DNA from: Bacteroidales bacterium | Lineage (GTDB): Bacteria > Bacteroidota > Bacteroidia > Bacteroidales > DTGW01 | Length of the DNA stretch: 41,705 bases | Assembly (NCBI GenBank): GCA_026416115.1 | Contig: JAOAFU010000075.1 | Span: 1-41,705 of the forward strand | Direction: 5' to 3' | In this document: positions 21,556-35,363 of the stretch, in pieces | Layout of the letters: each line of letters begins with the position of its first letter | Position numbering within the stretch: the stretch's first letter is position 1 | Program-made: the position numbers and the translations under genes | Notes under the pieces: model-generated | Databases searched by the model: none | Seen by the model: only the letters and a program-made list of their open reading frames with translations | Told to the model about the DNA's origin: nothing

Positions 21556-21720
21556 AATAGATATTTTTTGAAGGTACGAAAATAGATATTTACCCCTTAA
21601 TTGTCAAAGGTTTTTTTAAAAAAGTATTCTTACGTAAAATTTATATAAAAATTTGTATCGCTCAAGGTATCGAGATAAGAGGTAGAACCGACGAAACTAA
21701 AATTAAGGAGTCAAATATTG

Positions 21721-22111
21721 TGGAGCTGGCGGGAATCGAACCCGCGTCCAAACAAGAAACAGAAACGCTTTCTACATGCTTAGCCAATTCTTGATTGTCG
21801 GGCGAAAACTGGCAATTGGCAACCTATTTTCGCCTTAGCCCTGTCATTCTGACTGGTCGGTCAGGACACCCGACCAGCGAGCCCAATCTCACGAGCGCCG
21901 CTTGACCAACGAGCGTTGGGCTAGCTCATTGAGCGACGTCTTGTCCCTAACACCTAGGTTAAGGATAAAGCCAATCTACTGTACTTCGATTAGGCTGCAA
22001 GAGCGTAATTGTAATCGCCTTTTATTGTTTGCAACCCTTGTTAAGGCCGTTGTTGCCTGGGCCTGCATGCTTACCTTTCCATTTGCCTTGCTGTCAAAAC
22101 CAGTCAGCCCC
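21721..22111 (-). ncRNA. ssrA: tmRNA (transfer-messenger RNA)
   Basis: On the minus strand the 5' end reads GGGGCTGACTGG (from 22111) and the 3' end carries a T-arm plus acceptor strand CAGCTCC followed by A, giving a 7-bp acceptor stem with one G-U pair. The T-loop motif GGTTCGATTCCCGC is present. The 3' CCA is not encoded: the genome continues ACAA. The tag reading frame, near 22000, encodes GDYNYALAA followed by TAA, ending in the usual ALAA degradation signal. Total about 391 nt, a normal one-piece tmRNA that rescues stalled ribosomes with SmpB, which is not in the window. An exact -7 box (TATATTTG) lies 30 nt upstream of the mature 5' end. Confidence 0.97.
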
Positions 22112-31676: not shown

Positions 31677-32774
31677 TTAGTTAGGGAAAACTGCCGCTTT
31701 GGGTATTATGCCAACCGTATAGGATTTAATCTTTTGGCCCGATGCACTATAACGAGTCATCTCTCCACTTGATACATAATCCTTCGCATCGAAAACATAT
31801 ATTTCGCCATTAGTCGGATTGACCGAAAAACCATAAAAATAACCTTCGATGATAGGTGCCGATTCGAGATTTGTGGCATCAATACTAAACTTCCAAATAC
31901 CATTAAACCCAAAACCTGCCCCATAATACAGTGCATCCTTATCCTTATTAATCGCTATCATGCTCGGATGATAGTTCTTACCAATCGTATATGTTGCTAA
32001 TACTTTATAGGAATTAACATCGATTTTTACCAATGAAGAAGGCTTGTCGTTTTCGCTATTACTCCAATCAGAGACGCCCGAACATAATACCCAGAGATAA
32101 CCATTTTTGTCTTTCACCATGTGCTGAGGATTATGCCCAACAACTATTCTTTTTTCAACCTTTAAAGTCGAGGGATCAAATATAACCAGGGTAGAATCTA
32201 CCCCCCAACCACCTCCATTGGCTATCCACAATTTTTTGTTAATCTCTGCTATTCCTTCTGGTCCCGCACCAATAGCAATGGTAGTGTCAACTTTCAAAGT
32301 TGTTACATCAAAAATAGCTAAGCAACCATTAAATCCATCACCCCATTGAGTTACGTAACCTTTATTTTGATAAAAGGCAACAAAACGAGGACTCATCAAG
32401 TTTTCAACCACACCTGCCTGCTTAAAATCGTCGGCATTTACTACTTCAATTTTGTTTGAATTGTTTACTACTAAATAAGCCTTACCCTTATAAATGGACA
32501 TAGACTGTAATACATCGCCCAACGGTCGACCATTTGTCGAACTGAAGATATCCTCTTTTACGCTATCGGTTGAAAAGCTTAAAAAAGCAACCGTTGCATT
32601 TGAATGTCCAAATGTACCTTCGTGAAGTATGAAGGCTCCATTTGAATATAAACCTGCTGGTTTCTCATTATCGTCTTCAGTACAGGCAGCAAAAAACAAC
32701 AACGAAAACACTGTGTAATACAATAAACTCTTTTTTTTCATAGGGTTCATTTTTAAATTATTAATAATTTTCAT
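31677..32774 (-). CDS. btuG: BtuG-like cobalamin-binding surface lipoprotein (DUF5074, YncE-type beta-propeller)
   Basis: A 365-residue lipoprotein. After two possible upstream starts comes MKKKSLLYYTVFSLLFFAAC with lipobox Cys31, then an acidic TEDDNE stretch that in Bacteroidota acts as a surface-export signal. The rest is a seven-bladed propeller: SMSIYKGKAYLVVNNSNKIEVVNADDF, LWIANGGGWGVDSTLVIFDPSTLKVEKRI, LWVLCSG, DALYYGAGFGFNGIWKF and IYVFDAKDYV. In Bacteroides, BtuG proteins of this type bind B12 at the surface and pass it to BtuB. The start overlaps the receptor stop as ATGA (32771-32774), so the pair is coupled; a start at MKKK is the alternative. The riboswitch upstream supports B12 as ligand. 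Confidence 0.88.
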   Translation of the reverse strand: MKIINNLKMNPMKKKSLLYYTVFSLLFFAACTEDDNEKPAGLYSNGAFILHEGTFGHSNATVAFLSFSTDSVKEDIFSSTNGRPLGDVLQSMSIYKGKAYLVVNNSNKIEVVNADDFKQAGVVENLMSPRFVAFYQNKGYVTQWGDGFNGCLAIFDVTTLKVDTTIAIGAGPEGIAEINKKLWIANGGGWGVDSTLVIFDPSTLKVEKRIVVGHNPQHMVKDKNGYLWVLCSGVSDWSNSENDKPSSLVKIDVNSYKVLATYTIGKNYHPSMIAINKDKDALYYGAGFGFNGIWKFSIDATNLESAPIIEGYFYGFSVNPTNGEIYVFDAKDYVSSGEMTRYSASGQKIKSYTVGIIPKAAVFPN

Positions 32775-34678
32775 GGCTTAGCTGAAAAATCCAATGTAAG
32801 GGTCAACAAATAGTTGCGCATGGGCATAGCATAATATTGTCGCACCTGATATAGTTCGTTCCATAAATTATTAATTCTTAGCTGGAGGTTTGTTTTTAGA
32901 TAACTAGTATTAAAAGTTATACCTAAAAACAAATCGGCGACTTGAAAATCTGGTAATCGTTTTCCAAGCGAATACCTAACTCCTGTATAATTATGAATAT
33001 AACCTAATGTCATATTTTTGTATACAAACGCTTGACTAAGATTTGCCTTGTAAATGGGCACATAATCGGGAGGATAGTTACTCCAAACACCGTTGTTCTG
33101 GAGTGTTCTGGCGTGTGTATACTGATAGCTCACTGTCGTTAAAGTACGAAAATTTGTAAGTTCGCAAATCGATTTAACCTTTAGCTCAAAGCCTTCCGAC
33201 TTTCCTTTTGATTTATTTACTGGTTGCCATTTACCACTTATCTCATTGGGTTGCCAAATTATCCAATTGCTGATATAATTGTAAAAAAACGATTGAGAAG
33301 ATTCTAAATTTATCAAACCCCAAACAACAGCATGTTGCTGTAATGATACTTCCCCTGACCATCCCTTCTCTGGTTTAAGATTGGGATTTCCCTTGGCAAA
33401 AGCATCCTCTTTCCAAAACAGATCGTTAAGAGTGGGTATTCGATAGTTCTTCGAAAAATTTGATGAAAAACGAAGGTATTGGCTAATCTTATACTCAAAA
33501 CCAGCGCTGTAGACTATAGGTACAAAATATGTGACATATTCCTGTCGACAACCGATCATAAAATTAGCACGTTTGCCGATGTTTTCAACTTTATATTGCA
33601 GAAACAAGGCTGTGCGATTACGGGTAGGTTTATCGGTCGAATAGCCTTCTGAAAAAGCTACATCGTAGGTATGATTAAACCCTACTTGTATCCACTGATT
33701 TTTCAGAAACCAAAGTCTTGTTTCTAATTCGGTTACATACGAACGCGAATTATTGTTTGTAGCTTCTTGACTAGGATCGAAATAAAGAATCTTATTGTAC
33801 ACGTAGGCATTTCGGATTGAAAAAACAACAGCCGAATCGACGTATTTCCATTGAACATTCATCAGAAAATTATCATCATCTTGATGTGTTAGATTAGGAT
33901 TCGAACTAGTCATCATCGTTTGAATATCCTTTCCATAATGCTGAATCCAACACGAAGCCTTCAATACCGAACGATTCGATGTTCTAAAAAACAGCTGTGG
34001 CATAAAGCCGTACTGCTTCATTCCTGCATTGGTCTGTCGAATAGTTCGCTGATAATAATCGGCTGTATTTTTAAAAGGAAAATCATTGTCCGATTCTTGA
34101 AAAAATACCTTTAACCCCGAAGCCAATCGATTATTTCCCATTTTAAACCCAACTCCCATGCTTTTATTACCAAAGCTACCCAGCGAAGGGGAGACCCAAA
34201 TATGGTTAGGCTGTTGAATGAATCCAGAACTTCCGAGATGAACGATTCCGGTCATCGTTCCACTCCCATAGTTTACCCCCGATCCCCCATATTGAATCGA
34301 GGCGTTGTCGAGAAAACAAGCAGGAACGACCGAAAGATTAAACTGTCCGTTCATTGGGCTTTGCAAGTTAATCTCTTCCCAAACAACAGCAGTGTGCGAA
34401 GCCGAAAGCCCCCTCACCGAGACAGTTGATAAACCACCTGGTCCATAATTATTAACATTAAGTCCAGCATAAGTGAGTAATTCGGGCAAAGCAAGATTTC
34501 GTCCCGCGCGAAGAATAAAGGTATCGAGCGACTGCACTTGAGTTCCAATCGACAGTACTTCGAATCGAGGCTTAGTTACATGAACTGCATCAATATTGTA
34601 TACGCTGTCGATACCCTCGGCAAAACCAAAACTACATGCAAAATGCGCAAAAAAAAGTATAACCCAAAAATACTTCAT
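32771..34678 (-). CDS. btuB: TonB-dependent outer-membrane cobalamin receptor (BtuB-like)
   Basis: A 635-residue receptor. A signal peptide (1-20, FAHFACSFGFAEG) precedes a plug domain (about 25-140) with LALPELLTYAGLNVNNYGPGGLSTVSVRGL and SASHTAVVWEEINLQSPMNG, then a 22-stranded-type barrel ending in LLTLTLDF followed by SAKP. Internal blocks FSSNFSKNYRIPTLNDLFW and NPNLKPEKGWSGEVSLQ are typical of vitamin and siderophore receptors. The carboxypeptidase-like domain of SusC receptors is absent. Assignment to B12 rests on the cobalamin riboswitch upstream and the coupled BtuG-like gene. The inner-membrane transporter BtuFCD is not in the window. Confidence 0.9.
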   Translation of the reverse strand: MKYFWVILFFAHFACSFGFAEGIDSVYNIDAVHVTKPRFEVLSIGTQVQSLDTFILRAGRNLALPELLTYAGLNVNNYGPGGLSTVSVRGLSASHTAVVWEEINLQSPMNGQFNLSVVPACFLDNASIQYGGSGVNYGSGTMTGIVHLGSSGFIQQPNHIWVSPSLGSFGNKSMGVGFKMGNNRLASGLKVFFQESDNDFPFKNTADYYQRTIRQTNAGMKQYGFMPQLFFRTSNRSVLKASCWIQHYGKDIQTMMTSSNPNLTHQDDDNFLMNVQWKYVDSAVVFSIRNAYVYNKILYFDPSQEATNNNSRSYVTELETRLWFLKNQWIQVGFNHTYDVAFSEGYSTDKPTRNRTALFLQYKVENIGKRANFMIGCRQEYVTYFVPIVYSAGFEYKISQYLRFSSNFSKNYRIPTLNDLFWKEDAFAKGNPNLKPEKGWSGEVSLQQHAVVWGLINLESSQSFFYNYISNWIIWQPNEISGKWQPVNKSKGKSEGFELKVKSICELTNFRTLTTVSYQYTHARTLQNNGVWSNYPPDYVPIYKANLSQAFVYKNMTLGYIHNYTGVRYSLGKRLPDFQVADLFLGITFNTSYLKTNLQLRINNLWNELYQVRQYYAMPMRNYLLTLTLDFSAKP

Positions 34679-34712
34679 TGTTACAAATGATTAACCATAA
34701 TCATTCGTAACA
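34679..34712 (-). promoter_or_regulatory. 15-bp hairpin abutting the btuB start codon (probable riboswitch expression platform)
   Basis: Arms 34679-34693 and 34698-34712 pair over 15 positions (14 Watson-Crick and one G-U in the minus-strand RNA) with a 4-nt loop UGGU. The ATG at 34676-34678 follows with no gap, so the hairpin would cover the ribosome landing site. It lies about 80 nt past the cobalamin aptamer. Confidence 0.55.
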
Positions 34713-34716
34713 TTTC

Positions 34717-34757
34717 GGAAAAAGTAAAATAGAACCGATGGGAAAAGTAGTTCTATT
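34717..34757 (-). terminator. Candidate attenuator hairpin between the riboswitch and btuB
   Basis: On the minus strand AATAGAAC (34757-34750) pairs with GTTCTATT (34735-34728), followed by a T-rich tract. It is placed where a riboswitch-controlled terminator would be, but the stem is AT-rich and the loop is 14 nt. Confidence 0.4.
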
Positions 34758-34790
34758 CTTTGCTTTTCACCCGAAAGCTACGAACCTAAA

Positions 34791-34961
34791 GTATTGGTAG
34801 GTCTTCTGGCTTTCCTGACTTTTGACGCCTTCCCATCCTCATGTGGACAGTGGCTGAGGGGTCAAAAGTACTTCCCTGATTTGCAGGAACAGGATTACAG
34901 CTGCGGGGACAGCTCCGGCTTCTCACCGGATTCCCTATTAATCCCTCATGGGAACCAATAC
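34791..34961 (-). promoter_or_regulatory. Cobalamin (B12) riboswitch aptamer
   Basis: On the minus strand the closing stem is GTATTGGT/ACCAATAC (34961-34954 with 34798-34791). The conserved core is unmistakable: GGGAATCCGGTGAGAAGCCG, then GAGCTGTCCCCGCAGCTGTAA, the B12 box GCCACTG (34854-34848), GGGAAGGCGTC, and the end CAGGAAAGCCAGAAGACC. It controls btuB-btuG. A -7 box lies just upstream, so transcription starts a few nt before or at the aptamer. Confidence 0.96.
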
Positions 34962-34965
34962 ATCG

Positions 34966-34999
34966 CAAAAATAATTATTTTTCGTTTCCTGCTTACAAA
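34966..34999 (-). promoter_or_regulatory. Bacteroidota promoter (-33 TTTG, -7 TATTTTTG) for the riboswitch-btuB-btuG transcript
   Basis: TTTG (34999-34996) is followed after 22 nt by TATTTTTG (34973-34966) on the minus strand. The rest of the 34962-35153 gap is AT-rich and otherwise holds only a plus-strand TAATTTTG at 35046-35053 that could serve the HMA gene. Confidence 0.55.
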
Positions 35000-35153: not shown

Positions 35154-35363
35154 ATGCCAACGATGAAATTCAAAACCAATATCCGCTGTAGCGGTTGTAA
35201 AGCAAAAGTAGCCGCTATCCTTAATCAGGAATCGGGCATTACATACTGGGATGTCGATTTGAATGATCCCGAACGCATTTTAATTGTCGAAGCTGATAGT
35301 ATTGCCGATGAACAAATAATTGAGCTGGTTAAAAAAGCAGGCTACACTGCTACTAAGTTCTGA
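35154..35363 (+). CDS. Heavy-metal-associated (HMA) domain protein, copper-chaperone-like
   Basis: A 69-residue single-domain protein with the ferredoxin-like HMA fold: FKTNIRCSGCKAKV carries the metal-binding C-x-x-C (Cys12 and Cys15), followed by WDVDLNDPERILIVEA and IIELVKKAGYTATKF. The CSGC variant is common in Bacteroidota and differs from the MxCxxC of CopZ in lacking the Met two residues before the first Cys. It may carry copper or another thiophilic metal, but no P-type ATPase is nearby. Its last 11 bases overlap the end of the convergent CCA-adding-enzyme gene. Confidence 0.85.
   Translation: MPTMKFKTNIRCSGCKAKVAAILNQESGITYWDVDLNDPERILIVEADSIADEQIIELVKKAGYTATKF

Follow-up and report, generated by a model that had tools for sequence, protein, structure and literature searches.

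Translational riboswitches of the sequester/antisequester kind, for example the TPP riboswitch of thiM, work by hiding the Shine-Dalgarno sequence, with P1 usually as the switching element. In the cobalamin riboswitch of Escherichia coli btuB, the hairpin of the platform works close to the ribosome site itself. That the ligand blocks ribosome binding has been proven in vitro for this riboswitch (PMC2258182), and intrinsic terminators accompany 37 of the 38 functional cobalamin riboswitches tested in another study (PMC9600662). A kissing pair between the aptamer loop L5 and the platform loop L13 is known in these other cobalamin riboswitches (PMC9600662; PMC2258182). Bacteroidota are without Shine-Dalgarno sequences, and their initiation depends on the structure near the AUG (PMC6847099).

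The leader described here precedes btuB on the minus strand of a Bacteroidales contig (JAOAFU010000075.1), the whole analysed stretch of which, 41,705 nucleotides, is called the window below. It is probably a cobalamin OFF riboswitch that acts on translation through a relay of four segments, A to D (Table 1). With the E. coli btuB riboswitch it shares the aptamer, the L5-L13 kissing hairpin and the btuB target; ligand-dependent block of the ribosome is proven for the former, and we infer it for the latter. Unlike in E. coli, 83 nt separate the end of P13 from the AUG, the effect of P13 would be passed on by a second stem in competition with it, and the start lacks a Shine-Dalgarno sequence that could be hidden. 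The aptamer, L5-L13 kissing and mutually exclusive downstream pairings are also common to the terminator-type cobalamin riboswitches, from which this leader differs in that a conserved terminator is absent and the last helix masks the start codon. As in the sequester/antisequester riboswitches, a mutually exclusive pairing would free or hide the initiation region; here, unlike in the thiM type, the switching strand is made up of P13 and L13, and the hidden start has no Shine-Dalgarno sequence.

Table 1. Positions of the btuB leader elements, putative promoter elements and downstream genes in the window.
Feature	Positions	Strand	Description
Possible -33 element TTTG	34999-34996	-	22 nt upstream of the -7 match
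Putative -7 element TATTTTTG	34966..34973	-	fits Bacteroidota -7 promoter element TAnnTTTG
Cobalamin riboswitch aptamer (RF00174)	34779..34974	-	cmscan 107.2 bits, E 4.8e-26, gathering score 31.5
L5, C-rich aptamer loop UCCCCG	34904..34909	-	kissing partner of L13
Segment A, UUCGUAGCUUUCGG	34771..34784	-	includes P13 5' strand and most of L13; can pair with C instead
P13 hairpin, GCUUU-CGGGUGA-AAAGC	34762..34778	-	L13 at 34773-34767; in nearly all leaders
AT-rich hairpin	34728..34757	-	AATAGAAC (34757-34750) with GTTCTATT (34735-34728), 8 bp, then UUACUUUUU
Segment C, CCGAAA-U-GUUACGAAUGAUUA	34698..34718	-	predicted partner of A (ON); from 34712, masking-stem 5' arm (predicted OFF)
Segment D, UAAUCAUUUGUAACA	34679..34693	-	masking-stem 3' arm, flush with the AUG; 15-bp C:D
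btuB, TonB-dependent cobalamin receptor	32771..34678	-	PF00593, PF07715; PDB 8p98 BtuB E 1.4e-35
btuG-like surface lipoprotein (DUF5074)	31677..32774	-	PF16819; PDB 8bmx_D E 2.8e-45, 8p97_B E 5.5e-44

The cobalamin aptamer of the original prediction, made from the same DNA by eye of a model, was confirmed by Rfam on the minus strand upstream of btuB; RF00174 is matched end to end (model positions 1-189), and the core including the B12 box is complete. The two putative promoter elements stand slightly further apart than the usual -33/-7 spacing of 19-21. The -7 consensus of Bacteroidota is TAnnTTTG (PMC9723704), and the element of this type at 34973-34966 would put the transcript start close to the start of P1 (34961). 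By Pfam and PDB matches, the riboswitch stands before cobalamin uptake genes, with btuB-btuG downstream of the aptamer: the btuB product resembles the solved BtuB chains of PDB 8p97, 8p98 and 8bmx, and the chains matched by the btuG product share entries with these BtuB chains. The start of btuG and the stop of btuB overlap by 4 nt (ATGA), so masking of the btuB start may lower btuG too via translational coupling. Elsewhere in the window, a gene for a small heavy-metal-associated (CopZ-like) protein (35154-35363) lies divergent from the riboswitch, and a tmRNA gene (RF00023, 150 bits) is located at 21718-22111 on the minus strand; a plasmid search gave short partial matches only.

The masking stem at the btuB start consists of TGTTACGAATGATTA (34712-34698), the loop TGGT (34697-34694) and TAATCATTTGTAACA (34693-34679). 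Its 15 uninterrupted pairs, one of them G-U, have an energy of -16.3 kcal/mol (z -5.9 against dinucleotide shuffles), and the final paired base (34679) adjoins the btuB ATG at 34678, exactly where a 15-bp stem flush with the AUG had been predicted. A purine-rich Shine-Dalgarno motif is absent from UUUGUAACAAUG, upstream of this AUG. Among 1000 shuffles of the upstream 75 nt, none reached 15 bp, the longest start-abutting helix being one of 12 bp in a single case, and among the 29 other open reading frames of at least 150 aa in the window the longest such helix has 10 bp. For comparison among relatives, cobalamin riboswitches were collected from 295 genomes of the order and 137 leaders were read. 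Start-abutting helices of at least 11 bp occur in 22 of 112 riboswitch leaders, all with a long gap before the start, and in 3 of 103 other genes, one of these three being the btuB studied here, which was included by oversight (p 8e-5). The masking stem is conserved within the genus (L003) and the family (L008, L010), and is also present in other families (L018, L069, L044, L050, L056, L154, L159, L160, L166 and more). Over eight close leaders, 90% of the cells of P13, the AT-rich hairpin and the masking stem are paired, and 8 cells of these three helices are changed on both sides, which 0 of 500 shuffles equalled. The covariation of the masking stem across relatives that the original prediction had proposed as a check is therefore seen, and its view of this stem as a candidate for translational control is likely to be right.

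P13 directly follows P1 in nearly all leaders and is paired in all eight rows of the close-relative alignment; neither this hairpin (34778-34762) nor the alternative 14-bp A:C helix had been part of the original prediction. Among 124 leaders, the types of L5 and L13 change together: CGGGUG goes with UCCCCG in 14 of 16 cases and CGAGGA with UCCCG in 19 of 21, and CGGGAA, CGGGAU and CGGGUU go mostly with ACCCG. A different assignment, in which L5 was a UGARA loop pairing with UUUCG of L13, was rejected, as the loop types did not co-change. With the aptamer and the kissing hairpin together, the btuB leader is without doubt a cobalamin riboswitch. The earlier idea that an aptamer loop contacts the masking hairpin itself did not hold: the covarying partner of L5 is L13 of P13, about 50 nt upstream, and the signal would instead reach the start by strand competition.

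This competition is suggested by segment A (UUCGUAGC), a near copy of segment D (UUUGUAAC); A and D therefore compete for C. The part of C complementary to A, CCGAAAUGUUACGAA (34718-34704), comprises the masking-stem 5' arm and the six preceding bases, and A:C is a 14-bp helix of 34784-34771 with 34718-34704 (-15.1 kcal/mol, z -4.1). Since this helix uses bases of L13, A:C and the kissing contact cannot coexist. In the first test, so that it would not be circular, C was chosen blind to A and by position alone, as the 5' arm of whichever hairpin lies closest to the start. With one leader per family from 50 families, duplexes between A and C of the same leader average -5.47 kcal/mol; permuted pairs average -3.96 (sd 0.28), and 0 of 5000 permutations reached the observed value. 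When the C arm is replaced by the 75 nt that end at the start, the means are -8.38 and -6.98 (0/5000). In an alignment fitted to C:D only (35 rows, two antisense artefact rows among them), the A:C 8-mers are paired at 6.83 of 8 positions, against 6.32 when permuted, again with 0 of 5000 permutations as high. Exchanges in A:C include C-G to U-A (17 and 9 rows) and G-C to A-U (25 and 5 rows), and at the latter position segment D follows too. Examples of A/C are UUCGUAGC/GUUACGAA in the btuB leader studied, UUUGUAGC/GUUGCAAA in L008 and L160, UUUAUAGC/GUUAUAAA in L166 and UUCAAAGC/GUUUUGAA in L080. The signal is clear as an average; taken singly, A:C is significant at 5% in 36% of 91 leaders, and within the eight closest leaders alone A:C varies too little for a covariation signal. 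A rigid 8-mer register for A:C, which was too strict and partly misplaced (6.09 against 5.66, 1/5000), was given up for the duplex energies and the model-based alignment.

Thus, two mutually exclusive helices, A:C and C:D, share strand C, and C:D masks the initiation region. P13, A:C, C:D and the match between L5 and L13 are shown by the statistics of the sequences, and these elements would cooperate in the following manner. When cobalamin is bound, L5 would kiss L13, P13 would be held closed and A would be occupied; by analogy with the established behaviour of cobalamin riboswitches, the ligand is expected to stabilise L5-L13 and hence P13. With A occupied, C would be free to pair with D, and the 15-bp C:D stem would cover positions -1 to -34 of btuB, the zone on which the 30S subunit has to land when no Shine-Dalgarno pairing guides it. 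When cobalamin is absent, the A:C helix would form with the bases of L13 included and release D, and btuB would be translated, with btuG along with it through the ATGA overlap. We infer in this model the ligand dependence, the OFF direction with B12, the block of translation in vivo and the response of btuG.

Folding of the platform is consistent with such a balance. With P13 enforced, the modelled energy is -32.7 kcal/mol and the start region is paired; with A:C enforced, it is -33.3 kcal/mol (-34.6 with the full 14 bp) and D is released. The modelled OFF and ON energies are -29.6 and -29.6 in L008 and -33.1 and -33.5 in L018, and they are similarly close in L003, L008, L018, L069, L050 and L126. 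Compared between the two states only, the modelled energies are near equal, as a switch would need. From the OFF to the ON state, the paired bases between -15 and +3 of the btuB leader drop from 15 to 5, and this region is less paired in the A:C state in all 19 leaders examined. The unconstrained fold contains another pairing, between the P1 3' strand AUACUU (34796-34788) and the first btuB codons AAGUAU (34678-34668), and both of its sides differ in L003 (AUACCU/AGGUAU). As a switch this pairing was rejected: it was noticed by eye in one genus only, and it would cover the start when ligand is absent, the reverse of the direction expected.

The strongest of the other explanations concern the AT-rich hairpin, which the original prediction had described as terminator-like. 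The hairpin itself is real, with 8 bp of which 3 are changed on both sides among eight relatives; its role as a terminator is unsupported. In a reading by transcription attenuation, the hairpin and its U-rich tail would be a B12-dependent intrinsic terminator, with the start stem secondary, and in this genus an open P13 could leave its 3' strand, segment B (GAAAAG), to pair with the U-tract. Indeed, the tail UUACUUUUU is present both in the btuB leader studied and in L003, and B pairs with the U-tract in the ON fold only. Premature termination has also been proposed for cobalamin riboswitches of Bacteroides (PMC12751083), and transcriptionally active ones have been described in several Gram-negatives (PMC12121620). 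However, relatives that keep both other stems have UUUUCAC, UUUUCCC or UUUUAAU in place of the U-tract, the weak stem has 2 G-C pairs in 8 and forms in both modelled states, and conservation of C:D at the AUG is left unexplained. The G+C-rich stem and conserved U-tract of an intrinsic terminator are both lacking, and the hairpin is not listed by a simple terminator scan, which allows loops of 3-8 nt only. As there is no conserved U-tract and the same stem exists in both states, the AT-rich hairpin is probably not the switched element, and attenuation is an unlikely account of the leader. The hairpin is likely a spacer inside the ON helix, which would bring A and C together. A dual control, in which this genus alone would add B12-dependent termination by the AT-rich hairpin to start masking, could draw on the points for attenuation and the evidence for the relay together; it is equally doubtful, the termination part being unsupported outside the genus.

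The long, near-perfect palindrome near a gene start could also be taken for the DNA operator of a transcription factor. Yet of 35 leaders, 16 have G-U and 11 have A-U at one position of the stem, a variation that RNA tolerates and that breaks a DNA palindrome, the 5' arm co-changes with segment A about 70 nt upstream, and the putative promoter is about 260 bp upstream of the repeat; for the frequent G-U pairs and the co-change with A, this explanation is rejected as hardly credible. A chance hairpin without selection, for which the AT-rich region might speak, is refuted with next to no probability left to it by the shuffles, none of which gave 15 bp, and by the double-sided changes in relatives.

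The platform of the translational relay, which is preferred over these readings, is spread beyond the genus. Within the order, 74 of 393 genomes contain matches to a covariance model built on the platform only, with no aptamer; a recognisable B12 box is present at 28 of the 30 loci fetched, and the Rfam aptamer lies directly upstream in all nine loci checked, namely the two without the box and seven others. In a sample of the remaining phylum, six further genomes were matched. Four belong to a single family of another class; there the matches precede btuB-like genes, and a gap of 12-14 nt is left between the end of the stem and the AUG. The stem therefore need not touch the AUG, and coverage of the landing zone is probably what matters. 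In these four leaders (L171-L174), the mask carries a bulged A, and horizontal transfer and deep ancestry are both possible sources of the platform. In about 15 of 125 leaders, a list in which a few starts are misassigned, the platform is shorter and P13 itself reaches to within about 25 nt of the AUG. The leaders L161, L162, L165, L158 and L168 precede genes starting with MNG(D/E) or MSGE, one of which looks like an anaerobic ribonucleotide reductase; their C is GUUACCAU, in which ACCAU is able to pair with an AUGGU located at the start or immediately behind it, as a variant mask taking in the start region itself.

Bacteroidota form a large share of gut and environmental communities, in which they compete for B12. 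A start-masking relay in their cobalamin riboswitches was found nowhere described in the open literature that could be searched, which does not make its novelty certain. On balance we favour the view that this is a widespread platform of Bacteroidota cobalamin riboswitches working without Shine-Dalgarno sequences and undescribed in the searchable literature, either in a direct form, with P13 at the start, or in a relay form, where P13 competes via a near copy of the 3' arm of the mask. If true, a conserved relay that hides the start predicts translational control, as against the termination proposed in Bacteroides (PMC12751083), and would explain how translation could be shut off in bacteria without the usual ribosome-binding signal. 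The model names the exact bases to mutate, and control of initiation by an RNA switch without Shine-Dalgarno sequences becomes a question for a simple reporter test.

The same genome has a second cobalamin riboswitch (L002; genome G000, contig C11, about 1830-2100), located before an ORF of 32 codons, METMKMLSKKKMIFF..., whose AUG is just behind a possible hairpin (GUAAU...AUUAC). metE follows only about 200 nt later, and the small ORF is possibly a B12-gated leader peptide before this gene.
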